Shown here piece after piece: positions 3,081-32,870 of a DNA stretch of 64,000 nucleotides. The notes under the pieces are model-generated. The model searched no databases and had not been told where the DNA came from. It saw only the letters and a program-made list of their open reading frames with translations. The DNA comes from Blastomussa wellsi (Eukaryota; Cnidaria; Anthozoa; Scleractinia; Plerogyridae). Made by a program: the position numbers and the translations under genes. The DNA lies in NCBI GenBank assembly GCA_947652115.1, contig OX393574.1:12487654-12551653 (forward strand), read 5' to 3'. Every line of letters begins with the position of its first letter. The first letter of the stretch is position 1.

Positions 3081-3084
3081 TGAG

Positions 3085-4715: not shown

Positions 4716-5689
4716 AAATTTTGGTGTTAAGTTTTAACTAACTGCAGCTCTTTCCCTATGAAAGACAAGATGACTTGTCCAAAAATTATAGACCCAGAGT
4801 GAGTTCTAGAACGCCATAGAAAACTGAGCGACCATCATCGCACGTGCCTTTCAAATGTCACGTTACAATGTTAACTTCCGGGTTTGCGTCAGCCGCTGGA
4901 ACGCTGGCAACGGTACCGAAGTCACCATGGAATAGATTATTTACAAAAGATTGAGGTAAATAAAAACCAAAGCACTCAGAGAGTAAGAATCTTTCGAATC
5001 CTTTATTTTACAGTTTTGCTTTGAAATACACCAAGGCAGTTGTGCTTAAGTGTGGATCGCGTGACTTTGATAGTCGAATCTCGTGATATCTCGTGATTTG
5101 CAAATGGCGCTTCAATTGATTCATTAATACACGCTAGACTCGGAAAATTAACATGCTTTTTAAAAACGGGCTCAAATTTTACATAGTGTGCATTTTTGTA
5201 TCGAATGATAACATAATTTCGGTGAACAGTCGAACATAACTTCATTCGAGCTGATGATTGTAATATCTCCCCTTGTATCTGGCCTTTGATATTGAAAATT
5301 CATTGTTTGCACGCTTTCCGAGAAAGAACGGAAGTTACAATTTATAGTAAAGCTGACACGCTTCGTCGCACGAAAATTTGTGATGGACTTCACCGTTGTG
5401 CTACAAATGGTTTGTGCGATCAGTTTTCATCGGGGTTACATGTAAACAAAGGGCGTCAGTTAGATAGTTTTGGAAGCTCCGTGAAAAGAGAATTTGAATT
5501 TCCCTCGTCGCTGAGTCCTTTAATGAAATTGTTGATTTCGTTTAGTGTTGTTTATAATACGTGTATATTCGAATAACTTGGCAAAGCTGTTTTAAAAGTT
5601 TACACATAGCATTTATCTTTGCTTTGCAGGAAAAGCTTATTTTGTTTAAAAGCAATTTTGAACGTTAGCTGAACATAACGAATGATTTA
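4716..5689. other. no gene recognised
   Basis: Contains small open frames on both strands (longest about 96 codons) with no recognisable domain and no good splice context. Nothing is called. Confidence 0.4.
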
Positions 5690-6173
5690 TTGAGTCGCAG
5701 TAAGTTCGAATTAAGGCTAGCAATTGCGTTATTTCAGACTTTAGTACTAGTACTCTCCAAAGTACAAAGTTTTTCTATCGCATTAAAATCAACGGTTCAA
5801 AGGGTTGCTTCAAGTAAAGTGGTAAAAGAAGCGACTTGTATCAAGAGCGAACTTTCGCTGATCAAGCCTTTTGTAACTGAATTGCAATTAGCGATGCTCC
5901 GAACAGGAACTTGTTGAAATAGCTTGACAATAGAGCTTTAGCGAAACAGGAAAAATCACACATACTGGAACTCTCTGGAAGCCTATGGAGGTCCAAAAGT
6001 ACAGTGCGGATTCTACGACATCCTTTTGGACGACGAATATCTGTGGAAGACCGACGACTTCGCACAAACGCAGTCGTCAGCCAACGGCTAGACATTGTAA
6101 TGGATTCACCTCAAACGTCAGCTCTGAAGAGAAGAAAAGCTTTTCAATCTGTTTGAACGGCTTGGAAGGTAAG
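5690..6173 (+). other. patch of protein-like open frames, possibly an unknown or decayed exon
   Basis: A frame at 5690-5917 reads into IKSELSLIKPFVTELQLAML and stops. After a +1 shift, a second open stretch (about 5923-6160) contains SVEDRRLRTNAVVSQRLDIV and MDSPQTSALKRRKAF. The patch ends in a donor-like CTTGGAAG|GTAAGC at 6173. The composition looks protein-like, but the frame breaks once and no family is recognised. It could be a broken lineage-specific gene, a mis-framed exon pair, or chance. Confidence 0.15.
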
Positions 6174-7984: not shown

Positions 7985-8192
7985 TCTGCTTTTCTTTCTC
8001 CTCGGTCCTAGTTTTTAATCTCTTTTTATCTCACCCATTTTATCGTACTTTCTTAAAGTTTCTTAGTTGTAACTTTCGTAATTATTTTTAGCTTTATATA
8101 TCAAACATTTTTATTACTGTAATTATTAATTGTCACTGAAAAGCCCTCTTAGGGAGTGTCAATAAAGTTTGTATTGTATTGTATTGTATAAT
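7985..8192 (+). mobile_element. probable 3' end of a truncated non-LTR retrotransposon
   Basis: A T-rich stretch leads into AGCCCTCTTAGGGAGTGTC, AATAAAGTTTG and a short (TATTG)n tail (TATTGTATTGTATTGTA). A 3' end made of a hairpin-like block followed by a short tandem tail is typical of CR1/L2-like LINEs and of the SINEs that borrow their tails. No reverse-transcriptase reading frame is left upstream, so this would be a dead 5'-truncated copy. Confidence 0.4.
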
Positions 8193-8934
8193 ATCTAACA
8201 AAGTTGTTTTGTTTTGCAGTTAATTCTAGCTTTATAAATATATACACAGGATAAATGTACTGAATTCGCCTCCTCTATACGTCAGAACTTTTATTAATTG
8301 CATTTATCACACCCGGTACATGATCATACGTGTTTTTATGTGACCAAACATGTTATACAAACTTGATCTCAGGTGGTACGTTCGTTTTAGAGATCCCGAG
8401 ATAACGTTAAAACATGTATTTTAAATTGTGCATTCTATGTTCTTTTTAAAATGAAGACGGCATAACAGAGTTTTGTTAAAATAATGCTTAGTTCTTCTGC
8501 TGTTGTACATTGGACAGAGTTCTAGCGTCTCACGAGATAACCACGAGCCCCGGCAAGTCAAGCTTAAGTCACGAGTCAGTCTGTCTTGCTTGCATTCTTT
8601 GGAAAAGGGCATAAGATTACAAAACATTAAGAATCACGTACTAAATAAAAGTTAGTCCAGTTTTAAGTGGCATCAGAAGTGCCAAATTCTTCGAAAGATT
8701 CGTTTAAGCCAGGTTTGTTTTGTCTATTTGCATGGCTCTTGAGTCGCAGTCTCGCCTTTGACTGATCCCACAACTTTTTTGAGAAACCACCCGTTCTCAT
8801 CTGATCGCTTATCATTAGAACAAGTTTAACCCGATCGGGCAGGTTAGTACTTTAATTGATGACCAACTGGAAATTTGTTGGCCTTCCTTTTCTCCTTTTC
8901 TTTTCGCCTATGTTTACATAAATACCATTTCAGG
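8193..8934. other. no gene recognised
   Basis: No supported feature was seen. The stretch ends in an acceptor-like ATTTCAG at 8934. Confidence 0.35.
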
Positions 8935-9036
8935 TCGGTCCTTTGTCATTCTGACGGTTTCTTTTGATCTCGGCCATGGCCATTTTCTGGGCACTAAATG
9001 CCCCTGTAGACTACACGATGGAGCACCCAGATCTAG
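8935..9036 (+). CDS. candidate first coding exon (perhaps of the helicase gene)
   Basis: An acceptor-like ATTTCAG precedes 8935. An ATG at 8976 in a favourable context (CGGCCATGG) opens MAIFWALNAPVDYTMEHPDL, and a good donor (CTAG|GTGAGT) follows at 9037. The 61 coding bases end in phase 1, which fits the exon at 16271 and would give a 1,029-residue helicase-family protein. Against this, the intron would be 7.2 kb and contain a large satellite, a second in-phase start exists at 16091, and no homology supports the peptide. It could equally belong to an undetected gene. Confidence 0.35.
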
Positions 9037-10140
9037 GTGAGTCTGTTGCTAACTGTCAACTAAAGACATTATTTTCTTTTTTGCACAATTTTTATTTTTT
9101 ATATAATATCTTTTCATACATATTCCAAAAAAGAAAGTAACAAATCTTTTCGCTTGTCTCGAGGTTAACTCGTGATTCGTGGTTAAATTCGGCTCGCGCT
9201 TAGCTTGTGTAAGGACCAAACACAAAAAAAAATGATTGACCCAAAAGTTCCTGCTTTTCTTTTTAAACACAAGAAGAAAAAAAGTGCTCTTGACTCGAGG
9301 CTGACTCGTGACCCGAGTGTCCTGCTTTCTGTCTAAAGTAGTGATTGCAAATATCCGATTACGTTTTAACAAGTTTTTCACAAGAAGGATTTCACTAAAT
9401 ATACACGATAATTTATATTTCAAACCTTTTTGTAAGATGTTTTGTAAAAACAATTTATTCTATTTTACCTCGCTAACAACTGGCTGACAAAAGTTTCGAA
9501 TCATCTCAAATACAAAAGAAAGCAAAACATGTTAAGGGAGTGTTTGTAGCTACATTGCAGCTAATATGAAATCCTAACGTTATAACTTGAACGTAGAAAA
9601 AAATGATTTACGGATTTTCTCGGATATTTCCAGCTGACCAATTCTCGTTAGCTTTTCATCAGCCTTGGAGTGCTTTATTGCGTTAGAAAAAGCAATTATA
9701 CTATTTCTCAAGGAAGGAGAGAATATTCGTTAAAAGAGATCGTGGTATATTTTTCAAGCTCTGTTAATGTTTTCCTGTACAAATAATGTGGGTCAAAGAG
9801 GTTGAGATTGTACTTTTTCAATTCTTAACAGCATTGTGGAATTAAATGGAGAACTGTTATGTTTAACGACAAGACAGCAGTTAAAATGTAAATGGATGTC
9901 GAGTGAGATGATGATAGGGAAGGCTGGGTAGAGAGTTGTTTCATCTTCTTAAATTTCAGTGAGACATAAATACAGCTGCAAGGATAGGCCTGTGTTATAA
10001 TTTCATCATCTATAAGATAAGCGAATATCTTGCCTTTTTACCGTGGAATTAATAATCGAAACTCAGTATTCCAATGATTTATGTAAGTCATCAAGCTGGA
10101 ATCATAGATGCTATAAATGTTATATATTATATAAGTTCTC
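9037..10140. other. no feature recognised (possible intron)
   Basis: AT-rich, with no coding signal on either strand. A 134-codon minus-strand frame at 9049-9453 is Lys/Phe-rich low-complexity translation and is not called. Confidence 0.4.
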
Positions 10141-11473
10141 ATCTTACCTTACCTCACGTGCACCTCACCTTACCTCGATCACCTCACCACGCCTCACCTT
10201 TACATATCTTACCCTACCTTACTTATCTTACCCTACCTTACTTATCTTACCCTACCTTACTTATCTTACCCTACCTTACTTATCTTACCCTACCTTACTT
10301 ATCTTACCCTACCTTACTTATCTTACCCTACCTTACTTATCTTACCATACCTTACTTATCTTACCATACCTTACTTATCTTACCATACCTTACTTATCTT
10401 ACCCTACCTTACTTATCTTACCCTACCTTACTTATCTTACCATACCTTTCTTTCTTACCATACCTTACTTATCTTACCATACCTTACTTATCTTACCATA
10501 CCTTACTTATCTTACCATACCTTACTTATCTTACCATACCTTACTTATCTTACCGTACCTTACTTATCTTACCATACCTTACTTATCTTACCCTACCTTA
10601 CTTATCTTACCCTACCTTACTTATCTTACCCTACCTTACTTATCTTACCCTACCTTATTTATCTTACCCTACCTTACCTTACTTATCTTACCCTACCTTA
10701 CCTCACTTATCTTACCCTACCTTACCTTATTTATCTTACCCTACCATACCTTGCTTATCTTACCCTACCTTAATTATCTTAACCTACCTTACCTTACTTA
10801 TCTTACCCTACATTACCTTATTTATCTTACCCTACCTTACCTTACTTATCTTACCCTACCTTACCTTACTTATCTTACCATACCTTACCTTACTTATCTT
10901 ACCATACCTTACCTTACTTATCTTACCCTACCTTACCTTACTTATCTTACCATACCTTACCTTACTTATCTTACCATACCTTACCTTACTTATCTTACCC
11001 TACCTTACCTTACTTATCTTACCCTACCTTACTTATCTTACCCTACCTTACCTTACTTATCTTACCCTACCTTACTTATCTTACCCTACCTTACTTATCT
11101 TACCATACCTTACCTTACTTATCTTACCATACCTTACCTTACTTATCTTACCCTACCTTACCTTACTTATCTTACCCTACCTTACTTATCTTACCCTACC
11201 TTACTTATCTTACCCTACCTTACCTTACTTATCTTACCCTACCTTACCTTACTTATCTTACCCTACCTTACTTATCTTACCATACCTTACCTTGCTTATC
11301 TTACCATACCTTACCTTACTTATCTTACCCTACCTTACCTTACTTATCTTACCCTACCTTACCTTACTTATCTTACCCTACCTTATCTTACTTATCTTAC
11401 CATACCTTACCTTACTTATCTTTCCATACCTTACCTTACTTATCTTTCCATACCTTACCTTACTTATCTTAAT
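10141..11473 (+). repeat. TTACC-based satellite, 19-bp then 24-bp units
   Basis: Uninterrupted tandem array built from TTACC/TTATC pentamers. From about 10200 to 10660 the unit is mostly 19 bp (CTTATCTTACCCTACCTTA). From about 10660 onward an extra CTTAC is added, giving about 24 bp. The + strand is almost free of G over 1.3 kb. Variant positions (CCCTACC versus CCATACC) form runs of like units, as expected from local unit duplication. The array keeps two frames open for 495 and 565 codons (Leu/Pro/Tyr/Thr only). These are artefacts. Confidence 0.97.
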
Positions 11474-11589
11474 TATCGATTTATCGATTCGCTCCGACGA
11501 AGGGCTAACGCTCGAAACGTCAGCACTTGAATCTCTTTACGGTGGCCAATTGACATTATCAACCCAGTTGATAAAACCAAATTATATTG
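11474..11589 (+). mobile_element. non-satellite module interrupting the array (also at 60.1 kb)
   Basis: About 115 bp of unique sequence (GACGAAGGGCTAACGCTCGA, then CTTTACGGTGGCCAATTGAC, CCCAGTTGATAAAACC) splits the satellite. Nearly the same sequence occurs at 60104-60210 inside an intron of the FGD-type gene, so it is a dispersed element rather than diverged satellite. I recognise the GAAGGGCTAACGCTCGAAACG motif as common in coral genomes, but cannot name a family. Confidence 0.7.
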
Positions 11590-11883
11590 TTACCCTACCT
11601 TACCTTACTTATCTTACCATACCTTACCTTACTTATCTTACCATACCTTACCTTACTTATCTTACCATACCTTACCTTACTTATCTTACCATACCTTATC
11701 TTACTTATCTTTCCATACCTCACCTTACTTATCTTTCCATACCTTACCTTACTTATCTTTCCATACCTTAGCTTACTTATCTTTCCATACCTTAGCTTAC
11801 TTATCTTACCCTACGTTACCTTACTTGTCTTACCATACCTTACCTTGCCTTACCTTTCCTTAATTTAGCTTGCTAACCTTACC
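11590..11883 (+). repeat. TTACC-based satellite, second block
   Basis: The 24-bp-type units resume after the interruption. They become more degenerate to the right (TTTCCATACC, TTAGCTTACTT), as is usual at array edges. Confidence 0.95.
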
Positions 11884-12125
11884 TTAACTTACAATCTTTC
11901 CCGTAAAACCATGAGCACCAGAAATGTTTATGGAATTTAATTGTGTTACAAAGAAAAAGCCAATCAGGTGTGAGAAAACTAAACCGCAATCGGCAACGGT
12001 CATTAGTTTGTGGTTTTGAGGTTTGTTCGCGTGTCCTGAACTTTGCTGCGATTGGTCACTACACAACAAACATTCCAGGATTTTTTCTGGTGTTCACGGT
12101 TTTACGGGAAAGACTGTAACTTACC
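11884..12125. mobile_element. 240-bp MITE inserted at the edge of the satellite
   Basis: The ends are inverted repeats of about 36 bp: CTTTCCCGTAAAACCATGAG near 11894, against the reverse complement of GTTCACGGTTTTACGGGAAA near 12093-12112. Satellite-like TTACC sequence lies on both sides. There is no coding capacity. The target duplication is ambiguous because the flanks are repetitive. Confidence 0.75.
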
Positions 12126-12139
12126 TTACCGTCAGTACC

Positions 12140-12452
12140 ACATCAAGTTTGTCTTGTCTTTTTGTCTTCTTCTATCCTTTTCTGTGCTGTCTTGTCTTTT
12201 CTTGTCTTAATTGTCCTGTCTTCTGCTGCAGTGTCTTGTCTTTTCCTGTCCTGTCCCGTCCTGTCCTGTGTTTTCCTGTCCTGTTTTGTCTTTTCTTTAA
12301 ATTTCTTGTCCTGTCTTGTCTCGTCCTGTTCTTTCCTTTCTTTTCTTTTCTTGTCTTGTCTTGTCATTTCCTGTCCTCTCCTGCAGTTTCCTGTCTTCAG
12401 TGTCCTGTCCTGTTTTGTCTTGCTTTTACTTGTCTTGTCTTGTCCTTTCTGA
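12140..12452 (+). repeat. (CTTGT/CCTGT)n pentamer tract
   Basis: About 310 bp of imperfect TGTCT/TGTCC pentamers, again poor in purines on the + strand. It follows the MITE and the TTACC satellite directly, so two unrelated pentameric arrays lie next to each other. Open frames here on either strand are low-complexity artefacts. Confidence 0.93.
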
Positions 12453-14209
12453 AAATAGAACTAGTAAAAGCTAGAAAGGAAAACTTTAGATAAAGAATAT
12501 TAATAAAATCTTTTACAATCCCGAACCTCGAGCTGTCAAGCATCCAAATACAAGATGGCGGTATAGGGCAGAAAACACGGTCGATCAATCATGACAAGCG
12601 TTCAGACGCCAAAATAACTTCTGTACTGCAAACTAGCTAAGAAATATTCTCTAGTGTAAATTCGTCAAGATCATGATTAAAGAAAAATCGAGTAGAAATG
12701 AGTTAATTAATAGGTCTGAATTTGCAGATTTTTTTATTGTATATTTCATAAAGCCTTAGTCATTTTGGAACTAGGAAGTAGATTTTGTGTAGATGTGTAT
12801 TGATTAACAGTACTATGTAAGTTGTGATATCAGCTTATATATGAAGAGAGTGTCATTTTGAATGGCTGGGCTAAAATTTATTGCCTTGTTTTCGATGACC
12901 GTGAGTTCAAGGTCATTTGCCGTGGGCGATATTTTAGGTTTGCAGACCTGGAACTCTCTCCTCGGTGTTTGGAAATGTGATGAAACACTGTCTCTCGTGT
13001 TTGATGTATGTTTTACTTGAAACGCAGGGAACAAAGTCGTCTTTTCAAAAATACCCGCTCTTCAATTTGTTTCTGGTTCAATTGGGCTTGGTCTGGGTCA
13101 AAAGCCTCTGAAACGCTTCACAGTTTGTTTGCTATTTGCCTGATATCACGATATCATATTTTTATCACTCCTCCCCCATAATGGCGTTACATTTAGACAC
13201 AGGCAACATTAACATTGATAAGAAGAAAAAACGTTAAAGATCAACTGCACTAGTTAAGCAATATTAGCAAGAATCAGGCACAATATTCCAACGGAAATTC
13301 TGATGTGTGAGGACTGCAACTCATTCTGTTCACGAATGAGTGGTGATGTTTCAAAGTGTAGCAAATTTGCGCTTCACTGCTTTTGACTTTGAACCTTTTG
13401 TTATAAACCGTATAACGATCGATTCCCTGAAAAATTCAGCGCCAGATATATCCTGTCCTCTCGTCACACAATGCAAAAATTACTCATGCTAACTCGATCA
13501 AGGTAAACCCTTTCTTTAAATAACAACTGATCTGTGTCAATTGACTGGCTAAGATATATGAAACATTTTTGAACATCTCATTGGAACATTTGGAACATCT
13601 TACCATAGCTGAGGTACGCTCTATTTAAAGCGATAAATGGGTTTTATCTTCTTAATTATCCTTGGCGTAATGAATGGTAAAACCATATAACTGTAAACCA
13701 TGTTTTTCGACCGTAATTTAAGTCTAAGGTATTTTAGTAGTAGCTCAGCTATGTGCGTGAATGTGATTGGTTCTTCGCATTTTCTGTTCGCCGATAGAAA
13801 ACGATTGCGCGTGTGTTGCTCTCTAAAAGATTAGAGTTTTCTTTACTTTTGGCTAAAAGGTACAAAAAATGGTAGCTTTTGGAATGTAATTCGGATTCCC
13901 TCGTTTTCTACGAAAAGTCAACTTAGCTGCACCTCGTTAACTATTCGCCGTTTACCTCATTTTTCCCGGATGGGCCAAAATCTGATTGTTTATTGGCATA
14001 TGTGCAGTTGTTTGCAAAAGTGAAATCGCATCGAAACTAAGTTTTGTCTTCATAACTCGAAATTTAACAAAACTCATAGTTCCTGCTTTCACTTTGACCT
14101 TAGGTAAACAAAATGCCGAAAGTTTTGATCACTAGGAATGATGAATATGCTCTGGATATCGTCGCGTTCTGTTATACGAAAGGTGGCTGTTTGATTGTGG
14201 AAATGAAAG
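12453..14209. other. no gene recognised
   Basis: No supported coding region. A copy of the TGTTTGGATACCC repeat lies at about 12955-13015. Confidence 0.4.
12955..13015 (+). repeat. short copy of the TGTTTGGATACCC / GATGAAACACTGTCTC repeat
   Basis: Contains CGGTGTTTGGAAATG, GATGAAACACTGTCTCTCG and TGTTTGATGTAT. It matches 48226-48282 and, in reverse complement, 53560-53615. Confidence 0.65.
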
Positions 14210-14212
14210 TTG

Positions 14213-14535
14213 TTGTGTGCTGCTGTTTAATTATATTGCACAAAGTGGTTCTAACTTTGTAGTATGTATATGAAATCCTAATGTGTGACCATTCAAATGA
14301 AAGCTATGGAGCAGTACTTTCATGCGGTACTGTTTATTATGCTGTACAAGGTGGTCCTAACTTTTAAGTCTGTGGATGAAACCCTAGTGTGTGACCATTC
14401 AAATGAAAGCTATTGAGCAGTACTTTCATGCGGTACTGTTTATTATGCTGTACAAGGTGGTCCTAACTTTTAAGTCTGTGGATGAAACCCTAGTGTGTGA
14501 CCATTCAAATGAAAGCTATTGAGCAGTACTTAACG
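14213..14535 (+). repeat. 106-bp tandem repeat, three units
   Basis: GTGTGACCATTCAAATGAAA recurs at 14283, 14389 and 14495, exactly 106 bp apart. The second and third units are nearly identical (CAAGGTGGTCCTAACTTTTA, CGGTACTGTTTATTATGCTG); the first is more diverged. Open frames across it are incidental. Confidence 0.9.
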
Positions 14536-16090
14536 AAAGACAGTTGTAAGATTCCCATTCTCCCTCGTTGGTCCACCCGGCCGCAAAAAGCTTGTCAGAC
14601 GCAGATCCAAGACTCGAGCCAAAGCAATACAGAATACAGAGTTCCGCTGAGTGTCAATTTTCTTGGTTTTCAGATCCCGACAAACCATTTCAATTATCCT
14701 CTGGAGAATCGCCTTCTGTTTTCATCGAGCCAATCAGTTATTAATTTACGTTGGGAAATCCAATCAGAACAGTAACAAAGCAGATATCTACACAGATACA
14801 CTACCCGGATCTTCCGATCTAAAGTTGCAGAACTGAGGGTGCGTACGGGGGCCCACACCTAGGCCTAGTGTTTAAGGCTTGTAAACATTTCTTGGAAAAG
14901 TGTTATTTTATAATTATTGTGTCAACAGAACGTTGTTAGCGGGTGTGGGGTAGGGATAACGTCCTTGTCGGTAATTACGTCGCATCCGTGTTGCGCCAAC
15001 GAGTCGTATTTATTCTGACGGTCTATTGCTTAAGTAACGACCAGTCCAAAAAAAGTTGTATCAAATACAAGCAGTCATTTGAATCTTGAAGATTAAAAAT
15101 TATATCTTTGAATTTTTTAATGATATGCAATGTCACGTTGCTTTCCGAGAAACATTTTTCTAAGAAAACGGCAAGCGTGTAAACCTTGTTGCAAACGCTG
15201 AAATCAACAAAACGCCGCGCTGTTACGCACAGAATGTGCGAGTAGCATGGATTTCTCTTTGGTTGTTTCTTGCAACTCGTTCAGGAATGAGCCCCATCGC
15301 TTTCGTAAGTATGCAAGATCTAAATCGATCTTGAATAATAATCAAATTTGGTTTCTACGAAACAAGTTGTTTTCGTTCGACGCTTTCAGCGATGCATTTA
15401 TTTAAGCTTATATATTGTTGAAAAAGTTCGTTTACCGATCGACGCTTTTCTTCCTTTGTCGCTTTAAAGAGTAGACTCGATCAAAGCAACAGAGAATTTA
15501 GTTTGTTACTTTTCATCGCAAGTAACTTTGCCATTCGTGATGAATTATTGGAATAGCAGGTACCCGAGATAAATCTGAGTGATGGCTTGAAGAATGCTTG
15601 CCTAATAACTTCTTCCGCTTGGTGCATCTTAAAAGCGGTCCTTAAACAGAGTCTGAAAGAGTAAAATGTATCAAGTTGAGAATAAAATACTATAATTATA
15701 TTCTTGCAAAGTAACGAAAAGTTGAGATTGAAGCATTTTATGAAGATAATTTCTAATGAACGTTCGATTTCGATGGTGGGTCAGTTTTAAACGAGAAGTT
15801 TTTGGTTTAAAAAGTTTTAAACGAAAAAATGTATGATTAGAAAGTGAAAGTGACACTTCCGCGTTTTCTGAAAACGTTTGGTGTACGTGTGTGATAATTT
15901 GGTAACATATTTATCTTTACTAATATTTTCTGTGCGTTTTCTAGCCGAGCTTTAAGGTACGATGAAAGCTACCAAGTAAAGCAATTCCATAAGTAATTAA
16001 TAATAGTTTGGCTTTAATACTGAGTCTCACTACACATGTACAGTCACACAGTGACTTTGTTGTTGGAAAGTGGGCGGGTCATGGTACATG
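14536..16090. other. no gene recognised
   Basis: Unassigned sequence. A 92-codon frame at 14497-14775 overlaps the tandem repeat and shows no domain. Confidence 0.35.
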
Positions 16091-19000
16091 ATGTTCTCCA
16101 TCAGTAAAAAAGGTGAATTAAAACCAGAAATTGCAAAGAAAACCAGCTCATCGACAAGTTAGGATTTGTTTAAATTATTGTTGTAAGTTACAGCAGTAAA
16201 GTTTCTCAGGTGATAAGCACTTGTCTGTTAAACTTACTATCCTTTTACAAGATTGTAACATTTGTTGCAGGTCCGTTTGCAGGGACGATCAACGCAGAAT
16301 TATTCACGGAAGAAACGATTTCACCCGGAAACGGGAGTCCCTACGTAACACTATTCAACGGTTATGGAAAGAACCACAAGCACATTGCGTTAGGGAATGT
16401 CTACGGTGATTATGAAGCGATATCGCGAAATGGCTTTCAAGAAACAGAGCCACAAGAAACGAGCCCTGAGAGGACTGTTGGTTATGGCAGACCAAGATCT
16501 CACGCAAAAAGACTTCATTCTTGGAGTGGTCCCGTGTCTGAAAGCGAAGATAGATTTAACCACGATCATGTCCACTGCACTAAGGTAGGTGACAAAGATT
16601 CGCATACATTGGTCTCACATGACGTTTTCTTTGAATGTTACTGCTATTGTGGTCAATTACATAGGCGTACGGGCAATTTTTTGCTAGGGGGTGGGGGGGG
16701 GGGGGGGGGTTGGGGCGGTGAACTATTTGCCCCAAATATTCTCGCAAGTTGCCTTCCCAAATTTTCGCATTCGGGCCTAGTGGCCCATCAGGCCGGAGCT
16801 TATCCCGGTTTCTGTAGCATGAGGCGATAGAGTATGTCTACTCCCCCTGGATGGGATGCTAGTCCATCGCAGGGTTACCCCCCAGCTGAAAATTCGCCGG
16901 TGCTCATTTCCCTTTCGTAAACAAGCGATACCATTTTTAACGGTCGATGCCATAATTGGTAGCCAAGCTTTTCGGAATGGACGATGCTATATCTGCTCTA
17001 GTTTAGGCCTGGACTAGGTAGAAACTGGTTATAATTTGGTGATAGACTAATAAACACTCTAAAATTGCTTAATTGCTCACTTTCTAACTAGTTTGCTTGC
17101 GGTTAGCATTTATTTGTTGACTGGGGCAACAGTAAAGTAAAATAAATTAAGAAAGTCAGTTTTTATAATTAGATTTTGCGAGAATTGGATTGGCCTGGTA
17201 GTGTAGTGGTGAGATAAGAATGTAGGCACGTCAGAGGTTCACGGTTCGAATCTGGTCATTGACGTACATATTTTCTTTCTTTTGTGTGGGATAAAAATTC
17301 GATGATAGGCAAGAATATTCAAGTGTCGCTAAAATGGCATCGCTTGTTTACGAAAGGGAAATGTGCTTCGCCGGTACCCATTTATACACCTGGGTGAAAC
17401 GAGGCACTGTGAGAGTAAAGTGTCTTGCCCAAGAACACAACAGTGTTCCCGGTTAGAGGCTCGAACCCGGACCGTCCGATCCGGAGTGCAGCGCACTAAC
17501 CATTAGGTCACTGCGCCTCCCATGTTTAGCAGCAGCAAATTTTGTTGCTTGGACATAAAAATTGACGCTGGTAAACAATGCTTCCCATTCCCTTGTTTTG
17601 CCTGGCTATCATTCTCTTTTCGCACTGGTAAATTTAATTATTTCTTTCGCTATAACCAAGAACACGTATTTTTGTCATTTTTTCCTTGTCTTAGTTAGGT
17701 CTTTTTATTTTCCATTTTCCATCAGTTGTTTTGATTTAATTTTCTTGGCATGGAAAATGTCAAAGCATGACTGATGTATTTCTGAAGAACCCCAGTGTAA
17801 ACCACGTTTGTACTGGTTTTTCTCTGCGAGTTCCAATTTTTGTGTTTCGGGTTCTTGTCCGAATATAAGTACTTTCGCTCATACACAAAATTTTAAAATG
17901 CGCCCAGGGTCGCGTTGTTCAAAGCTGCGTTGAGATAACCCAGATTTGAATTCATAAATACAAGCTTTAAGAGCAAATTCAGTTTAATTCTTTTTGTCTA
18001 TAATTTGATGAGGGAATGCTCTAAAAAATATAGAAAATTATTGGACAAAATATTTTTAAACAAAAGAAAAAGAAACCGGGATTAAAATTTAACCCCGGAT
18101 TAGCACAAATCGGCCTTCGAACAACTGGGCCAAGGACTACAAGAAATAGATATCAAGTAAATTGGCGAAGGAAGAGGGGGAATCGTTCTTATTATTAGCT
18201 TTTAGCTATTTTCCCAAGCCACAACGGCCAAACTTGAAAAACTCAGCCTGACTTTTTCAAGTTGAGATCTTAAGCTTCGTATGGTATCACAATGATATCA
18301 CTCCTTTTCTGGCTCAGTACACTGGCAAAGTAAATTTAAAAGAAAAATGGACCACTATTGGTAGGTTTCCTCACCGTTTCCATGCCTTGGGTGAAAATAC
18401 GTCTTCAGATTTTGGAGTTTTTTGAACGTGACAGTTATTTCAAAGGCGCATTTCAAAAATCTTAACAGAAAACCTTGGTAAATATGCAAATAAGTCTTGA
18501 CTGAACTATAACCTTCTTTTTTTCTTACAGGCAATTGAGGAAACGGGGCATCACACTGGGATGGACGGGAGAATGGAAAGTCAAGGCTGTTGCATTAGGA
18601 AGCAGGACGCAGCTCTACATATTGCTAAACATTTAGAAAATGCCTTCCAGTTGGGTCACCATCCTTCATTTGCGGTCCATTTGGAGTCCCAAGAATGCAC
18701 AGTGGATACAACCCCTAGAAGATGGTCTGCTGAATTTCGCGATACGGATCTGTCAGCCTTACGAACCAAGAGCATTGTTCCCTCGAAGCCGAAAGCGCGA
18801 GTCACTAACCATAGGACAACTACGCGAAGCCATCTTGAAGGTGAAGGTGAGTCCAATAACAAAACACACACCTGCCGAAATGGAGCGCGCCCTGTTATAG
18901 CATATGCCCAAAACATGGCTCTTGAGGACGAACCGAAGTATGAAGATCTTCAACAAAGGATCCTTGTTGTATTGAAACGTTATGGACCTTTGGAGTCTAT

Positions 19001-22000
19001 AGATATTGCCAAGGCTCTTAAATGTGAGATAAGGGAGAAGGTAAACCATGCCCTATACTTGCTCAATAGAAAAGGTCTTGTTTGTCCTGCAGTTTCGAGA
19101 GATGGCTCAATCATAGCGTGGATGTCAGCCGAGCAGCCTTTTCTTGGATATCGAGCGAACCCAGGAGTGATTGGTGGCGAAAGAAGCAAAGACAAATGTT
19201 TTAGAAGAACTTCCTATGAAGAACTCTGTGTGCAGCTAGGGAGGAATTCCCCTGGCGGTGGGTACGATAGTAGGCCAAGACAAGAGCCTCGAGGTGTTGA
19301 CGGCATGAAGCCATGGATGCGATCCAGTGGGAACAGCCCTCCACTAAGTGAAAGAAGTGCGTCGAGCTATTGCAACGTGTGTGGAATTTCATTCGTGTCG
19401 GAGCCGCAATATGAGGAACACCTTCGAAGCACGAAACATCAAAACAAGGTAGCAAAGGTTAGTGCGATTCCATACAAGAAATTCTGCGAGTGTTGCAAAG
19501 TGCATCTAAATTCCCAATCGCAAGCCAAAGAGCACTTCAGCAGCGGAAGGCACGAACAAACTGTTGCGAAGTCTCAAAAGGCACCACCTCAGCAACATCT
19601 TCCATTGATCACTGTTCCTGAGCAGTCCACTCCACAGCTAAGCACAATAACACAGCCGTACGACTACCAGCTTGAGTTGTACAGCAAGGCAATGAACACA
19701 AATGCTGTGTGCTTTCTTCCGACTGGAACTGGCAAAACGCTTGTGGCCTCCTTGGTCATCGCGCACATGCTCAAGTTGAATCCATCTCGGCAAGTGGTCT
19801 TCTTAGTCGATCGTGTTCTTCTCGTCCTTCAGCAAAGTGACTATCTTAGAAAGGAACTGTCGAGTGTCCGAGTCGCGGATGAGAGGGGTACTTTCAAAGG
19901 TACCAGGCCCGTTCGCATCGGAGCGGTCTGTGGTGAAATGAGGAAGCTTGAAGGGAATGCTCGCATCTATGAGCAGGACGTTCTAATCATAACAGCTGAC
20001 TGTTATAGAAATCATCTAAATAACGGAACACTTCGCTTCGATGATGTTTCATTGTTAGTTCTTGACGAAGCACATCACTGCAACAAAGACCATCCTTACA
20101 ATGTCATCATACGAGACTTTTATCTGAGGGAAGATGCTCTTCTCGGTCATCGACCCAAAATCCTGGGACTCGCAGAATCTCTTGCTGGAGAGATCTCTCT
20201 GGACAAAACAACCAAGAGATTACAGAGACTCTTAGGGAACCTTGGCGAAGCACAGATGTTGGTTGTCACAGACCATGCGAAAGAACTGGAAAAGAAGACC
20301 AACAGAGCTCCACCTGACTGCATCGTTGCTTCATATACCAATTCTGAATGCCAGCTCATGGACATGCTTATGGAATACGCCACCAAAGCATTCAACTTGT
20401 CTGTACGATTGAGCGAGATGAAGGACTACAAAGACATCTTTCAGCCATCATCTGGCGGCCATTTTAGCATCGATGACATCTGCCCTGTTCTTGGTGTGAT
20501 CGATAACATTTTACTTTCTCGCCCCGAATCTAATGCCTTGTATTCGCTGCTGCACTTTCAGCACATCTGCGAGGCTGTGTGCACGCTTCAGGAGTGTGGG
20601 GAGCAGATAGCGATGTATCCGATAGCAGAGCTGGCAGACGAGAAGTGTCCTTTCGGGTTTCATTGGGCAGAGAATGCGGGTTTTCCATGCATCAAAGTCA
20701 GGTCCTATTTGGAACATCATCTCAGCAAAGGTAATTTCAATTTCAATATATCATGGTGCGTATTTTTGCAGCCAAACTAAAACTTTGTCAATTAAAGAAC
20801 TCGATATTTTTAGACGATTTGCAAAGTTGGTTTTAAGTAAAATGCCAAAATAATAGTTAAATAAGGATGGTTAGGATTGGAGAAGAATCAGCTGGATTTC
20901 AAAGGACCAACTTGAGCTGCACGAAAAGAGAGTTGATTACGTTCCACGATTTATTCACCATCAGTGTCGTAAAAAGGAACTTAAGCGGTGGTTCTTGTTC
21001 CGGTGAACAAGCGAAAAGAAAATAAGAAATTGCCCTTGCGAAAATGCCATGGAATTAACTTAAATCAAAGTACTTCGTTCCTTTGCGAGCGCATGTGGTT
21101 GAAGAAGTGTCACTTACCTATAGCGACAGTCTTTGTTTCGCCAACTGAGATGAACTGAATTATCTGTTGAAACTTCTATTTTCTTTTCCCATAAGGTTGT
21201 GTTTCAGAGCTTTGTGGGTTAGATTCAGGAATAGAACAACTGATGAAGCAATTTATGAAAGTAAACTGGACTGAAGTGGACTTGGTTTTGGTACTTGTCA
21301 AACGAGCACGTACGGCGCGATACCTGGCTAACTTTCTGTCAAATTGCGGGAGGCTGGTCTCATGGTTACACGGAGTGAGGACCACGTTCTTTGCGAAATA
21401 TGGATGCGGTTCTACTGATCAAGGTAAGGCCTTATTATGTAATTGATTCGTTGGTTGTGTCAAGTGAGATCTCCCAATCTGGCGGAGGGGAGCACAAAGA
21501 GGACTGGGTGGCCATGGAGTCTGCAGCCATCTGTTACTCCGAGTCTAGAGTGTTTTGACATGACGTCACGGCGGCCATATTGGTGTCCCAAAGCAAAGAA
21601 ACGGCGGCCATATCGGTGTCTCAAAACAATCCTCCGGGAATTGAACTCCATTGTTATGAAATTCAGCAATCGAATATGGCCGCTTGTCACGCGTGTGAAA
21701 ATACTCTATAACATCTACGATAGTGAAACTTGGAGGGTGTAAAATAGTTCTAAAACTGGTTATTTATAAGTTTGTGGAAAAAGATGATGACGTCATAGGT
21801 CGTCCAAATCACACCAATGGCCCAATTTATGCTAGAGATGGGTCATGGATGGATCATCCGTATGGGAACGGTAATCTGTCCGATAACTTCTCTTTGTAAA
21901 ATACGGATCATCCGCCCAGAGAGCTTATCGTGATAGTTCGTCTTGACCCACGACTATCGTGGATAATCCGTCCAACGAACTGTAAGACACACCGATAGTT

Positions 22001-22715
22001 CGTCCCAAAATTCGTCCTGTTTTTATGGTAGGCGGATGATCTGTATTGACGGATGATCCGTCGCTTGTGTAAATCGGGCCAATATTTGCGAAAAAACTTA
22101 ATGATGCAAGGCTGATCAATCAGCTTGAAACTGATGGTATTTTAAGTTTATTGCTCATTTGTTGATTGCATTTTGGGAGTTTTCTCCAACAATGGCGTAA
22201 AAGTAACCAAAAACCCAGTTTTGCAATAAAATTGGAAAAGGTCTACAAAAAAGACATGGAAATTCAAACAAGTTCTTGCTTATACAGGCAGAATTCCAGT
22301 TTCTCCAACTGTTCTACTGCTCTGGATAATAGTAAAGGTCTCCGATAGATAAGTGAAGAAACGCTGGAATGTATTATTTAAAATTTAGAAATGCATATTT
22401 TTTATTTGGTTTACAGGAGTGACGCATCCAACGCAAAGAGAGGTGATCTCACGAATTCACGAAGGTATGTTTCAAATTGTCGTCACCACAAGCTTGGCCG
22501 AGGAAGGCCTGGGCCTGCCTATGCCCAGCTTGGTGATTCAAATGGATCCGTCAAGCTCGGTCTCAGCCCTCGTGCAAATACGCGGTCAGGCACCTCTGAA
22601 CGAGGCACAGTTTGTTGCTATCTGCAGGAACGATGAGCAGGCCAAGAAAATTGAAGATTTACTAAAACGGGAAGAAAACATGAAACGTTCTGCTAGACTC
22701 ATAAACGGGTTGTAA
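16091..22715 (+). CDS. Z-alpha / C2H2 zinc-finger / DExH helicase protein (RLR/Dicer-like helicase)
   Basis: Coding exons 16271-16584, 18531-20730, 21208-21423 and 22417-22715 (TAA) join in phase. A first exon at 16091-16112 (MFSISKK; total 1,016 aa) or 8976-9036 (total 1,029 aa) also fits in phase. Domain order, numbered for 1,029 aa: unassigned 1-255; Z-alpha winged helix about 261-327; C-x2-C-x12-H-x5-H fingers at about 405-428 and 443-465; helicase about 500-1015. Motif I is LPTGTGKT and motif II is DEAH. Motif III is GLAES (usually GLTAS), motif V reads AEEGLGLP (usually AEEGLDxP) and motif VI is QIRGQAP (usually QxRGRA). The protein ends at once after the helicase: no CARD, RLR C-terminal domain, PAZ or RNase III is seen. 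By analogy with RIG-I-like and Dicer helicases it may bind viral or self dsRNA/Z-RNA in the cytosol. That function, and whether it still uses ATP, is inference. Confidence 0.75.
16271..16584 (+). CDS. helicase gene, N-terminal exon with ambiguous reading frame
   Basis: Bounded by TTTGTTGCAG and AAG|GTAGGT. The frame that is open throughout and stays in phase with the helicase reads GPFAGTINAELFTEETISPG onward, low in hydrophobic residues. Another frame gives more globular-looking peptide (DLTQKDFILGVVPCLKAKID, then TTIMSTAL) and continues across the splice as LRKRGITLGWTGEWKVKAVA, but meets TAG at 18631-18633. The boundaries are good; the translation is uncertain. Confidence 0.5.
16687..16712 (+). 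repeat. poly-G run
   Basis: GGGGGT followed by 17 consecutive G and TTGGGG. It abuts the 3' side of the minus-strand SINE. It makes an apparent glycine run in a read-through frame that is not coding. Confidence 0.9.
16902..17366. mobile_element. MULE-type MITE with 9-bp target duplication, nested in the SINE
   Basis: Terminal inverted repeats of about 36 bp (CATTTCCCTTTCGTAAACAA, then GCGATACC or GCGATGCC) lie at 16902-16938 and 17330-17366. They are flanked by identical TTCGCCGGT at 16893-16901 and 17367-17375. A 9-bp duplication is characteristic of Mutator-like transposition. No transposase is encoded. A tRNA-like segment sits inside. Confidence 0.88.
17190..17265 (+). repeat. tRNA-like SINE head inside the MITE
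   Basis: TGGCCTGGTAGTGTAGTGGT resembles box A, and GGTTCGAATC (17243-17252) is a good box B. The spacing fits an internal pol III promoter, but the cloverleaf stems do not pair well and the sequence runs into ordinary DNA. I read it as a tRNA-derived SINE fragment and not as a working tRNA. Confidence 0.6.
17521..18530. other. intron of the helicase gene, no other feature
   Basis: AT-rich, with a strong pyrimidine-rich acceptor at its end (CTTTTTTTCTTACAG, 18516-18530). Nothing else is recognised. Confidence 0.5.
18931..19137 (+). other. Z-alpha (Z-DNA/Z-RNA binding) domain of the helicase protein
   Basis: The winged-helix sequence runs from YEDLQQRILVVLKRYGPLES to SIIAWMS. The recognition helix KVNHALYLLNRKG lines up with the ADAR1 Z-alpha helix. 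It keeps the Asn and Tyr that contact Z-form nucleic acid, and the wing keeps the Trp. The Pro-Pro usually found in the beta-wing is absent (DGSIIAW). This is by-eye pattern matching to the ADAR1/ZBP1/PKZ Z-alpha fold. Confidence 0.8.
19363..19563 (+). other. tandem U1/JAZ-type C2H2 zinc fingers of the helicase protein
   Basis: Finger 1 is CNVCGISFVSEPQYEEHLRS followed by TKH; finger 2 is CECCKVHLNSQSQAKEHFSS followed by GRH. Both follow C-x2-C-x12-H-x5-H, the spacing of JAZ/ZFR/ZNF346-like and U1-C-like fingers, many of which bind dsRNA. They sit between Z-alpha and the helicase, about 14 residues apart. Confidence 0.88.
21545..22080. repeat. intronic repeats: duplicated CGGCGGCCATAT block and CGGATGATCC-rich stretch
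   Basis: CGGCGGCCATATTGGTGTC and CGGCGGCCATATCGGTGTC lie 40 bp apart near 21570-21620. From about 21850 to 22070, variants of CGGATCATCCG / CGGATGATCCGT and GATAGTTCGTC recur in both orientations. No family name can be given. Both lie in the last intron of the helicase gene. Confidence 0.5.
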
Positions 22716-28335: not shown

Positions 28336-30482
28336 AAAAGAGTAAAAGCAGGGTTTTAATTTCGCATCATCAATTTTTTTTTCGCGAGTCTTTAATTTAG
28401 CAATTTTTCTATCCTGGGAATTAGCAACAAGAAGATATTTGTATCAAGGCCGAAAAAGTGTATTTTAAATTAACTGAAATAGAACTGGCTGCATTAACTT
28501 GCAGGTGATTATTCACCTCTTTGATCTTCTAACTTTAACCGTGAAACAGAACTGGTGGAGATTTAGCTTGAGTTTTTAGTTCACTCGCGGCATGCTATAA
28601 AAACAATTCAGTTAGGGCATCCCAGGAACAATTTTTAAATTGATTTTTTAGGAAGCGAGACGTTAAGCGCACCGCACGTGCAGTCACTTCCTGCACGAGC
28701 GACGCGACAAGTAATTCATGCTTTTAATAGCAGTTTCTCTGGAGGAGTTCTTATTTAACAATTAGATTATGAGCTCGAGATTTCTATGGGGTGATAGTTG
28801 ATGAGCCCGAAGGACGAATCAACTATCACCCCATAGAAATCGAGAGCGAATAATCTAATTGTTTCAGTAAAAATCATAATAAACGAGTCATTTGTCGGTG
28901 AAAAAGGTTTAAATCTTCCTGCGAAACTTCGCTAAAGCGCGAAGACGTCGCCGTTTTGAAGACGACTTTCAACCACTGCACTCTAATGGCTGATAGTGTG
29001 CAGTAGCTCAGCCAATCAGATTGCGGCATTTGCATTAGTATACTAGTAGATTTTTACTAATAATAAATATAAGGGTCTCGTCTGAAACAGAGTGGGGATT
29101 GAATTACACATATTTTGGTAAGACTGCGCCGATAACCCACTCAAACTTTTGCAGGTCTCTGCTGGGGCTATTTGCATCCAGTTTACATCTGCCCTCAGAG
29201 TATGGAGGTCAGCATTACCATGGGACATGGAAAATATAGTTCCTTGCGTCAATTAAATAAATTACTACCTTTCTTGTGACCTCGGCTCTGTACCTCATCT
29301 TTTTCGCAGCAGGTTTTTCCGTTTTCCGAGACTCGTGTCGCTTTTTCAAGCAAAAAATATCTCACCTTCTCCTTTCGTGCGTTATGAAACCACAAACACG
29401 CTTCATTAAGAATTTATATTCTTATAATGTCGAAATTTACGTACAGTCAGAGATTACATGAGATGGCATTCCTCTCAGCCTTTTCTTTTGCTAGTACTCG
29501 TTCGTTCGTAACTGATTTTCCAACGCTTTGTTTCATCCATTAGCGATAATGAAAAGACTAATTTGTCAAAGTTTATGGCTAAAATTGGGCATCTTTATTT
29601 CGCTTAATGTCTCTAGCTGTTGTTAAAAAATGGCAGTTTATTCAAATGTTAAGCAAGGTGTAACTAATTCCTGGGTAGAATTTTTCGAAACCCTGCCAAA
29701 TGTGGTTTCTTTTTTATCTTTGAACAAACCGCTGTTATTAATGGAATTGCCACTTTCTTTTTTAAAACACACCAAATAGTCTTGTTTTGTTATGAAAATA
29801 TACATACGGCAATGTAAAATGCGCAAAAACGTTTTTCAATTAACGGCTCGGTGATATTCGCCTGACACACGTTCATTTGCATTGTCGCTATATAATTTGT
29901 ATTTACTATTTTCCATTTTTTATGGGAAATCAAATACAATCACAACAATACCCGGTTATAAGCTGGTTTTATAATAGACGGGTGTTTTGATGGCGCATTT
30001 GGCGCAAATTGCTTCGCTTACGCATATTTATATATAACTTGAAGTGAAAATGTTTTAATGGCAATCACGGTTGCGTGTGAAATGTAACACCGGCAAAATT
30101 GAATACTCGGGTACAAAAGAATCTTTATTGTCCTTGATTTTCAAAAGCCTTAATTCTGTAATATGTCATATTTAAGAGCTTACTGAGTTTTTCTTTGAAA
30201 ACAACAGTAAAACGGAACTAAAGAAATCGTCCCCGCTCCGAATCTGAAGCAATTGAAGCATGTTTCATTAGAAGCCAGTTAAGTTAACGTTTTAAGCAAC
30301 CGAAACACATCAAAAACAGAACAGAAGGCAAATATTGAAGATAATACAATGATAAAGCTTATTTTGTTAATGGTGATACAACTCCAGACAACTGTCACAC
30401 GTTAAACTGACGTACATCTGGTCAAAACGAGGTCTAAACTGGGTGGTTTAAGCGCCTATAACAAATATATTCTTGCGGCAAA
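28336..30482. other. intergenic, one small foldback, no gene
   Basis: No coding region was recognised upstream of the receptor. It contains the foldback at 28759-28863. Confidence 0.4.
28759..28863. repeat. foldback with about 45-bp arms
   Basis: The left arm (CAATTAGATTATGAGCTCGA, TTTCTATGGGGTGATAGTTG) is the near-perfect reverse complement of the right arm (CAACTATCACCCCATAGAAA, TAATCTAATTG) around an 11-base loop. It is probably a tiny MITE. Confidence 0.85.
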
Positions 30483-32870
30483 ATGAATAACACAACTTTG
30501 AAAGAAGAAACCTGTTTCAAAGTGGATATCTTCCCGCTGTTTGTATTTGCTTTCGTCGTAAACATCGCCTCACTTATCGCCGTCTTAAAAGCCAGACCAA
30601 GAAAATCAACTCCAAGTTCTGCCAAACAGATTCACATTTTAATCTGTTGTCTCGCTGGTTCCGACACACTATCAGTTGGTTTACAATGCGTGATGCCTTT
30701 TGCTTCGTTCCTAAATTGCGGTTGGTGGGGAGGCAAACTAACTTGTTCTCTTTTTGGATATGTTAACGCCATCTTGATCTTATGGTCTGCCTGGATCGTG
30801 GCCTTACTGAGTTTTCAGAGATTTCTGGTCACAGCTTTTCCATTGATACATCAACGCGAGTTTACAACGAGCCGGATCAAGTCTGCATTAATTTATTTGT
30901 TTTTTGCGCTTTCTCTGGTCCTTTCTCCGCCATTTTTTGGTATCGGGGAATTCGTTTACTATGAAACCGGCCAATTTTGCAGTGTTAGCTTAACAACAAC
31001 TGGAATTCCAGACACCGTGTTTCTTGGGATTCTTGACGCACAAGGTTTTGTCTGCGTTTTGGCAGTGCTGGTTTTTAATGTCCATACAATTGTGTCACTC
31101 AAAACAAGGAGGTCAGGATCTGCATTTCACACGCAGACAGTACGTGCCATGAAAGATTCCAGCTCAACATTTTTATCTTTAACAAAAACGGTCGCCCTGG
31201 TGTTCTGTATCTGCAATATTCCCCTTTTGGTAAGTTAATTAGGCCCATAGAAAATGTTTGGTCTCCCCAGAAACAAGTAAAGTATGCGAGCCTGAGGAAA
31301 TCAAGTTTCTCTTTAAGGCCCTAGTCAGCCACACCTTTGTTATTGTTTACATCCGAAAGTTTCAGCACAGGGAGCAGAGGAGTTATGCTTGAAACATCAA
31401 TAAAAGAAACGTCTTACCTTCGTTCTTGTATTTATTCAATTCTTTTAGTTAAAACCTCATTTGTGAACCAAACATACGTATATTAATTTGCGATCGATCG
31501 TTTCGAACCGCCATCATTATGAATAGTGCCGAGCACTGTGCATTCAGTTGGACGAAGTCCAACGAATGATTTTCGGAAAGCGAAGCTTCGGCTCGTCCAA
31601 CTGAATGCACAGCGGTCGACACTATTCAGAATGATGGCGGTTCGAAACGATCGATCGCAAATTAATATACGTATGTTTGGTTCACAAATGAGGTTTTAAC
31701 TAAAAGAATTGAATAAATACAGGAACGAAGGTAAGACGTTTCTTTTATTGACGTTTCAAGCATAACTCCTCTGCTCCCTGTGGTTTCAGTACTATATTTT
31801 ACCTGGAGCGCATCAAAACAAAAGATATTGCTGAGAAACTTGCTAAAAGTAATTGAAATACTTCCACAAACATAACCTACAGCAATGCAAAAGCACTTCA
31901 CCATACAATTTCCATAATTTCGATGGCATCGAAAATGGCGGAGGCTGACTAGGGCAGAAGACACAAAAAACAAACGCAGATAATTATCCAGAATTGTCTT
32001 ACTTTTTCCAAAAATAAGGACATTTGGTAGGACAACTGGAAAGGAAACAGTTTTTTCATGATTTTTCATAGGGAAAAAATCGTTGACATTTTGGGGTGAA
32101 CATATATTTTTAAACGGAAGTCGGCTCAACTGCTTGATACATTAAAATTAGAAGAGGAAATAAACAAAAATCAAGAAATACAAACAAGTGTCTGGGAACA
32201 CTTATTTGATTGGCTAACTTTTAACAAAAGAAAAACGAATCAAATCAACCGTTTTATAATCCCTTTGTTATAAGGGGAGTTTGTAACGGTTGATTTGGTT
32301 GGCTAGCCATTCAACTTCTGTGTTCCCAGAGTCCTTTGTTTTTCGTGCTCACTCTTCCCGCGGGAGGCTGGATACGAGAATTCGGTCAGTGCTTTCCTCG
32401 CTCCGAAGACTTCCGAAATTCAATCGAAAGTACTATTTAAATCTGATCTCTGTTGAATACGTGATCAATATCTAATATTCTGGGTAAGATGCTTGAATAG
32501 AGCAGGAACTGTCGCAGCTTTGTAAGTGAACATAGACTTTTTATTTGTACCTTTATGTAATTACCTTCATTTGTCTACTGTTTTCCTCTCGTAGGTCCGC
32601 ATAGCCGTGGACCTAGGCAAGCAGACAACGCACCGAGAACTTGGTTTAGAACACACCCTTACGATGGCCTTGATTTTTGTAAACCCTTTGCTAAATCCTT
32701 TCATTTACGTAGCCTGTCGGAAACGTTACAGACAAAGCCTACAGAGACTTCTTTGTTTTAAACTCTGCATTGGACCTGGAGTCGTTCCGCGGAATAATTC
32801 AGTTTCCGTTATCAAGGTAACGGAGAAGGTTAACCAACGATCGGAGATTTGTGAAGAGACAATGTTATGA
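30483..32870 (+). CDS. class A GPCR, prostanoid-receptor-like
   Basis: Exons 30483-31229 and 32595-32870 join in phase 0 to give 340 residues. The N-terminus MNNTT has N-glycosylation sequons. Seven hydrophobic segments are visible: TM1 with Asn (FVVNIASLIAV), TM2 with Asp (CCLAGSDTLSV), TM3 opening with a Cys (LTCSLFG), TM4, an extracellular loop Cys (GQFCSV), TM5, TM6 with CNIP split from its end by the intron, and TM7 with NPLLNPFIY. A helix-8 stretch CRKRYRQSL follows. The DRY box is replaced by QRF (LLSFQRFLVT). The short TM1-TM2 loop and the overall look recall EP-type prostaglandin receptors, but this is a by-eye impression; the ligand is unknown. It acts at the plasma membrane. No neighbour suggests a pathway. 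Being a class A GPCR is nearly certain; the subfamily is not. Confidence 0.88.
31318..31955. mobile_element. 638-bp foldback element in the GPCR intron
   Basis: GGCCCTAGTCAGCC at 31317-31330 mirrors GGCTGACTAGGGC at 31943-31955. Inside, arms at 31366-31554 and 31594-31782 are about 95% reverse-complementary over 189 bp (CGATCGATCGTTTCGAACCG, ATTAATATACGTATGTTTGG). Its transcript would form a very long hairpin inside the receptor pre-mRNA. It is non-coding; the 155-codon minus-strand frame over its right side is incidental. Confidence 0.9.
32192..32329. repeat. foldback with paired CTGGGAACAC / GTGTTCCCAG ends
   Basis: The outer pair is at 32192-32201 and 32320-32329; an inner pair, AATCAAATCAACCGTT / AACGGTTGATTTGGTT, is at 32238-32253 and 32285-32300. 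It is directly followed by CAGAGTCCTTTGTTTTTCGT, similar to the end of the MITE family at 26.2 and 60.4 kb. It lies in the GPCR intron, about 265 bp before exon 2. Confidence 0.7.

Follow-up and report, generated by a model that had tools for sequence, protein, structure and literature searches.

Proteins with a Zα domain are known to pair it with a few partner modules: a deaminase in ADAR1, a kinase in PKZ and a RHIM in ZBP1. In vertebrates, Z-RNA is read by ADAR1 and ZBP1 and double-stranded RNA (dsRNA) by the RIG-I-like receptors (RLRs; RIG-I, MDA5, and LGP2), which are separate proteins; for RLRs, ATP-driven proofreading of self versus non-self RNA has been proposed. Here we describe a gene of the stony coral Blastomussa wellsi that encodes a Zα domain, two zinc fingers and a DExH helicase in a single protein. 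It is located in a stretch of 64,000 nucleotides (contig OX393574.1, positions 12,487,654 to 12,551,653; "the window") of a 368-Mb genome in 124 contigs. Judged from its exons and those of its relatives, the Zα-finger-helicase fusion is real, conserved and the product of one gene, as an earlier reading of the DNA (the sequence-only reading) had claimed. Its product has the Zα domain in common with ADAR1, PKZ, and ZBP1 but differs from them in the partner modules, and its helicase core is like that of RLRs, with zinc fingers and Zα instead of CARDs and the C-terminal regulatory domain.

The gene is single-copy and lies on the + strand at window positions 5985-22715, with five coding exons and four introns over 16.7 kb, coding for 1074 residues. 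The exon set, joined by canonical GT-AG sites and ending in one stop (Table 1), was picked among 72 open combinations by its fit to P0001 (relatives are numbered from P0001) and by the best splice sites. P0001, a protein of Oculina patagonica whose function is unnamed, was the best protein match (74% identity over exon 3), and in tblastn it gave five coding pieces, collinear on the + strand of the window. Exon 1 was placed by homology only. Exon 3 is one uninterrupted 2.2-kb exon, contained in a frame (18501-20780, +) open for 759 codons, and it codes for the Zα domain, both fingers and the N-terminal half of the helicase, which exons 4 and 5 complete. When the exon-3 protein was compared with its own genome, the sole full-length match was the window itself. 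The sequence-only reading had placed the gene at 16091-22715 in one in-phase frame with Zα at residues about 261-327. Its end was exact; its start was wrong, because tblastn with the Oculina relative puts the first coding exon at 5985, 10 kb further upstream. The single frame was right for Zα, fingers and helicase N-half but not for the C-half, which is in the last two exons, and the Zα residues had to be corrected.

In five relatives (P0003, P0009, P0010, P0016, and P0019), Zα, fingers and both helicase halves were found in one frame, in the same order as in the window, on contigs of 3.5-5.4 kb. We infer that these contigs are transcripts: in the coral gene, four introns spread over 16.7 kb interrupt what is here a continuous frame. 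In P0003, whose frame begins only after exon 2, the Zα is degenerate. The shared exon and these five frames answer the objection that Zα and helicase might belong to separate mRNAs, and the relatives show the domain order expected in other anthozoans.

Relatives were counted in two sets: 30 anthozoan-type sequences (P0001-P0029, 29 in number, and the window) and 30 non-anthozoan ones (P0030-P0038 and P0041-P0061). P0039 (an RLR), P0040, Dicer/Hef and other sequences, and P0092-P0098 were left out of the counts, and P0095 was checked apart. About 8000 candidates for wider relatives were scored, and more may exist.

The Pfam z-alpha profile matched the window protein below its 21-bit cut-off (17.1 bits, E=0.006) and scored 45.9, 38.6, 30.4, and 46.8 bits in P0010, P0016, P0022, and P0023, respectively. 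This weak match is not a chance one, because a profile of ten relatives, built without the window, gave 42.4 bits (E=1.4e-13) and controls were far lower: the next best of 722 window open reading frames of at least 40 residues scored 2.8 bits, and the Zα stretch alone reached 46.9 bits against at most 7.3 bits in 2000 shuffles. When the window and seven relatives were combined in one profile, its first 24 PDB rows were all Zα/Zβ proteins or chimeras, counting 2l4m and 4hob, deposited as uncharacterized, which we take to be of this type. In the predicted structure, the PKZ, ADAR1, and ZBP1 domains were the top structural matches. These results supported the prediction that the domain folds as a Zα winged helix-turn-helix. 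Of the expected contact residues, ADAR1 N173, Y177, and W195 have counterparts in N338, Y342, and W363, and both wing prolines are missing. Among the relatives, Pfam alone found z-alpha (E<=0.05) in 9 of 29 anthozoan sequences; the local profile found it at E<1e-4 in 23 of the 30 anthozoan-type ones, window included, ten of the scored sequences having been used to build it. Borderline values leave P0007 (0.046) and P0029 (0.091) outside the 23, P0025 was counted through its N-terminal copy, and five sequences had no Zα detectable by this profile.

Three relatives (P0023, P0025, and P0029) showed an extra, more N-terminal Zα-like domain with weak scores; in P0023, the result is a tandem arrangement like that of ADAR1 and ZBP1. 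B. wellsi also has a separate ADAR1-like gene (C1:5342611), in which a single open frame spans domains of Zα, dsRNA-binding and deaminase type, and a second, degenerate Zα-like stretch was seen by eye further upstream. The tandem of P0023 suggested that the Zα might have been captured from coral ADAR with its paired Z domains; a tree of 18 Zα domains, with 2 of 15 inner branches starred, placed the first Z domain of coral ADAR apart from the first Zα of the three relatives, and neither showed nor excluded this origin.

The two fingers follow the claimed C-x2-C-x12-H-x5-H pattern and were present in all 30 anthozoan-type sequences. The motif PGVIG[GAE]E[RKI] between Zα and fingers was conserved in 28 of these 30, and PGVIG occurred in none of the other proteins compared alongside them; the exon 2 motif TVGxGRP[RK] was found in six sequences, the window among them.

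The exon 3 frame matched DEAD/ResIII in Pfam (E about 5e-13), and the LPTGTGKT and DEAH motifs that the sequence-only reading had seen are present. The motif set of an active SF2 helicase (I, II, III, and VI) is nevertheless incomplete, with AES in motif III and RGQAP in motif VI. In RIG-I, the motif VI arginines touch the ATP gamma-phosphate. Both arginines of G-R-x-R were kept in all 29 non-anthozoan sequences that reach motif VI (22 by pattern and 7 read separately; P0038 is a fragment, and GRTR of P0059 was counted as keeping both) but in none of eight anthozoan ones: the window and Oculina have lost both, and P0003 and P0009 retain the first. Walker A (GxGK[TS]) was intact in 30 of 30 non-anthozoan versus 17 of 30 anthozoan-type sequences, being altered in 13. 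These comparisons indicated that the ATPase is eroding across Anthozoa, as far as motifs can tell. An active helicase in B. wellsi is doubtful, because both motif VI arginines are gone and motif III is altered, and ATP hydrolysis has probably been lost or strongly weakened. In the Nematostella relative P0027 (LOC116604124 isoform X2), Zα was undetectable, the P-loop is broken (GADKT) and the motif VI arginines are missing. An association of Zα loss with Walker A damage (Walker A intact in 0 of 5 sequences without Zα versus 17 of 25; Fisher p=0.009) was not built on, the sequences being related and their kinship ignored.

In phylogenetic trees, the window family, which includes animal zinc-finger helicases, formed a clade separate from RLRs and Dicers (100/100); RLR sampling was thin, with three and then four sequences forming their own clade. 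The claim of an RLR/Dicer-like helicase therefore stands for the RIG-I/LGP2/MDA5-like core and not for membership of either family. CARD gave no match in the window frames of exons 2-5 (exon 1 was outside the scan) or in full-length P0001, P0009, P0010, and P0016, and the C-terminal regulatory domain PF11648, PAZ and RNase III gave none in the same sequences, in agreement with the architecture claimed as unlike ADAR1, PKZ, ZBP1, RLRs, and Dicers. Residues 1-257 of P0010 were modelled at a predicted local distance difference test score (pLDDT) below 50. The window protein stops at about RIG-I residue 771, the gene ending after the helicase. Its best PDB sequence match was AncD1D2 (4.8e-21), a reconstructed ancestral Dicer. 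The window protein also lacks the Dicer dimerisation domain and falls outside the Dicer clade.

The animal zinc-finger helicases that share its clade, such as those of Mytilus ("RIG-I-like", P0033), Ptychodera (P0030), Lingula (P0055), and Lineus (P0095), also have fingers before the helicase; no family name was found for them. Such proteins were found in molluscs, a brachiopod, a nemertean and hemichordates, and one sequence with a scpid/scgid label is presumably from the sponge Sycon; databases name them "RIG-I-like", "dicer-like" or "uncharacterized". Fingers of the C-x2-C-x12-H-x5-H type preceded the helicase in 25 of 30 non-anthozoan sequences and in P0095, and the pattern found none in the other five, all short (549-611 residues). 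In these helicases, motif VI and Walker A are intact. The four whose fingers were counted have more of them than the window protein (five in P0030 and P0033, four in P0032, eight in P0095), and Zα was absent from P0095 and, by the local profile, from all 30. The trees assign the window helicase to a lineage of animal zinc-finger helicases, a third one beside RLRs and Dicers proper. The zinc-finger-helicase part is old, and, as far as these sequences show, only the Zα seems to have been added in Anthozoa.

The nearest helicases in the B. wellsi genome carry a RIG-I-CTD-like domain and were sister to the window family (94/86, not full support). One of them (L008, C23:3034500-3042000) has a single open frame of 1277 residues at 2604-6434. 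In it, a RIG-I C-terminal-domain-like zinc domain (21.7 bits, below cut-off) precedes a DExH helicase, which is followed by the beginning of an RNA-dependent RNA polymerase (PF05183, 81.9 bits, profile positions 1-116 of 582), an animal helicase-polymerase fusion. Dictyostelium polymerases with a helicase offer a parallel. A second locus of the same type (C23:3226005, minus strand), about 190 kb from the first, has RIG-I_C-RD (28.7 bits, above cut-off) before the helicase.

Among the open-licence papers searched, no title or abstract opening described a protein that joins Zα, fingers and helicase, or treated the finger-helicase clade as such. Romero et al. (2024; PMC11298590) had predicted "a new Zα containing protein" for Anthozoa: its versions in Poritidae and Actinidea retain every important residue, and those of Acroporidae or Caryophylliidae carry Y177F and W195Y. 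P0018 and P0019 have Phe and Tyr at the Tyr177 and Trp195 positions, and because they carry this pair of variants, the published protein very probably belongs to the window family. The article text does not appear to name a zinc finger or helicase for it; because its conclusion, referring to Fig. S3, likens new architectures to ADAR1p150-DHX9 synergy, the authors may have noticed the helicase, and the supplements may show the architecture. The sequence-only claim of a new type is thus partly new: the fusion was not found in the papers searched, and a matching anthozoan Zα protein had already been predicted. The window protein adds a new form to the Zα proteins, one built on an animal helicase family that has drawn little notice.

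With chances that we consider about even, the protein would be a sensor or scaffold, predicted to bind Z-RNA and dsRNA, whose motor is weak or dead. The Zα domain, apparently added in the anthozoan lineage to an old animal zinc-finger SF2 helicase, would read left-handed stretches of RNA or DNA, and the fingers together with the helicase clamp would read right-handed dsRNA, joint binding conferring selectivity and avidity. The P-loop would still bind ATP, with weak or absent hydrolysis making the protein a nucleotide-gated clamp and no unwinding motor. Output could pass through the N-terminal tail of about 300 residues, modelled as disordered in a relative and bearing the TVGxGRPR motif; alternatively, foreign or self dsRNA would be kept from other machinery, in either case as an antiviral or self-RNA sensor or scaffold. 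An antiviral role, perhaps as a distinct route to the recognition of viral RNA, is conceivable. Several observations weigh against this sensor or scaffold reading. Both wing prolines (ADAR1 192-193) are replaced by Ile-Ile in the window; in the structural comparison, rank 5 (ZBP1, 10.6) and rank 6 (a bacterial-type winged helix, 10.4) were tied, with many such regulators close behind; and of the 23 sequences with Zα, only 8 kept Asn, Tyr, and Trp together, these contact residues having been lost repeatedly. Most anthozoan-type sequences were assigned to Anthozoa by similarity, P0001 and P0027 being the named exceptions. For the motor, the Walker A lysine itself was gone in only 5 of 30 anthozoan-type sequences and Walker A is intact in the window; loss of the second motif VI arginine alone need not abolish activity, because two other B. 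wellsi helicases have GRAS in motif VI, with the first arginine kept, and are otherwise intact.

The main competing explanation, doubtful but possible, is that the Zα is a relic: a winged helix that no longer reads the Z-form here and in many stony corals, in a protein that would work as a dsRNA-binding (pseudo)helicase with zinc fingers. None of the nine closest relatives (P0001-P0009) keeps all three contact residues, the window has lost its wing prolines and five anthozoan-type sequences have no detectable Zα. Compared with Oculina, Zα is the fastest-changing domain (44% identity, next to 48% in the linker before it, 61% in the N-terminal exons, 80 and 93% in the fingers, and 92, 85, and 80% in the helicase N-domain, Hel2i and C-domain). 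Romero et al. (2024) likewise cautioned in their conclusion against reading function from the prediction of a Zα. Against a relic, the window keeps Asn, Tyr, and Trp, as do seven sequences beyond the nine closest (six with Pro-Pro-x-Trp and P0022 with Pro-His-Val-Trp), and an arms race would explain the rapid change of the Zα as well as decay; both fit.

An ATP-driven helper of RNA interference, comparable to the nematode Dicer-related helicases and feeding Dicer or an RNA-dependent RNA polymerase with substrates picked by Zα and fingers, is unlikely. The intact Walker A and DEAH of the window and the sister helicases with a RIG-I-CTD-like domain, one of them running into an RNA-dependent RNA polymerase, would suit such a role; the absence of the two motif VI arginines and the AES in place of TAS in motif III, the recurrent Walker A changes in anthozoan sequences and a sister grouping short of full support speak against it. 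A chance join by misassembly, or two adjacent genes taken as one, is scarcely credible: unlike domain types do share one locus behind a repeat-rich first intron of 10 kb, but the exon common to Zα, fingers and helicase N-half, the canonical splice sites of the 1074-residue model and the equal domain order in relatives, with continuous frames on transcript-sized contigs, already refute it for the Zα-finger-helicase core, exon 1 being linked by homology only.

Table 1. Features of the Zα-finger-helicase gene (window coordinates).
Feature	Position	Strand	Evidence
Coding exon 1, N-terminal tail, residues 1-61	5985..6168	+	tblastn with P0001 residues 1-60 (piece 5985-6167), E=1.8e-11; donor GTAAGC
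Coding exon 2, residues 62-166, holds TVGYGRPR	16271..16584	+	tblastn with P0001, E=1e-28; splice sites
Coding exon 3, residues 167-899: Zα, two zinc fingers, helicase N-domain, Hel2i	18531..20730	+	Open frame; Pfam; splice sites
Putative Zα winged-helix domain, residues 304-366	18942..19130	+	Pfam; local profile; structure model; shuffle control
PGVIGGER motif, Zα-finger linker	19161..19184	+	PGVIG[GAE]E[RKI] in relatives
JAZ/met-type zinc finger 1, C-x2-C-x12-H-x5-H	19371..19439	+	Pfam zf-met, zf-C2H2_jaz
JAZ/met-type zinc finger 2, C-x2-C-x12-H-x5-H	19485..19553	+	Second zf-met stretch
Helicase motif I, LPTGTGKT, intact	19716..19739	+	Motif reading
Helicase motif II, DEAH, intact	20064..20075	+	Motif reading
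Helicase motif III, GLAES instead of GLTAS	20166..20180	+	Motif reading
Coding exon 4, residues 900-975, helicase C-domain start, motif IV VLVLVKRARTA	21196..21423	+	tblastn with P0003, E=2.5e-20; splice sites
Coding exon 5, residues 976-1074 and stop, remaining helicase C-domain	22417..22715	+	tblastn; Pfam Helicase_C, 34.7 bits
Helicase motif VI, QIRGQAP versus G-R-x-R of non-anthozoan sequences, both arginines gone	22575..22595	+	Motif reading

The first intron contains a long tandem array of CTTACC-type units (10200-11892; periods 19, 24, and 48), which is open in several frames and easily taken for coding. Elsewhere in the window, a rhodopsin-family receptor was found at 30462-31235 (7tm_1, 55.9 bits) and a nucleoside phosphatase of GDA1/CD39 type is represented by two exons at 36203-37120 and 38181-38624 (178.9 and 45.9 bits). 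A proline- and acid-rich open frame of 1095 residues (44709-47993) had no Pfam match at E<=0.1; by eye, its repeated YSVP/YAVP motifs look like SH2/SH3 ligands.

A speculative and rather doubtful proposal is that an old dsRNA helicase was rebuilt in anthozoans as a sensor of conformation. Instead of lying in ATP-driven proofreading of self versus non-self RNA, selectivity would have moved to a Z-RNA-reading Zα, while the motor lost its motif VI arginines and, in many sequences, the integrity of Walker A. Such a sensor, as old as the cnidarians, would stand beside the deaminase, kinase and RHIM types as a fourth cellular kind of Zα sensor. A Zα and a dsRNA helicase in one protein would join Z-RNA and dsRNA signals. 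The finding also draws attention to zinc-finger RLR/Dicer-like helicases as an animal lineage, and in corals and sea anemones it would make testable whether Z-RNA sensing is older than interferon.

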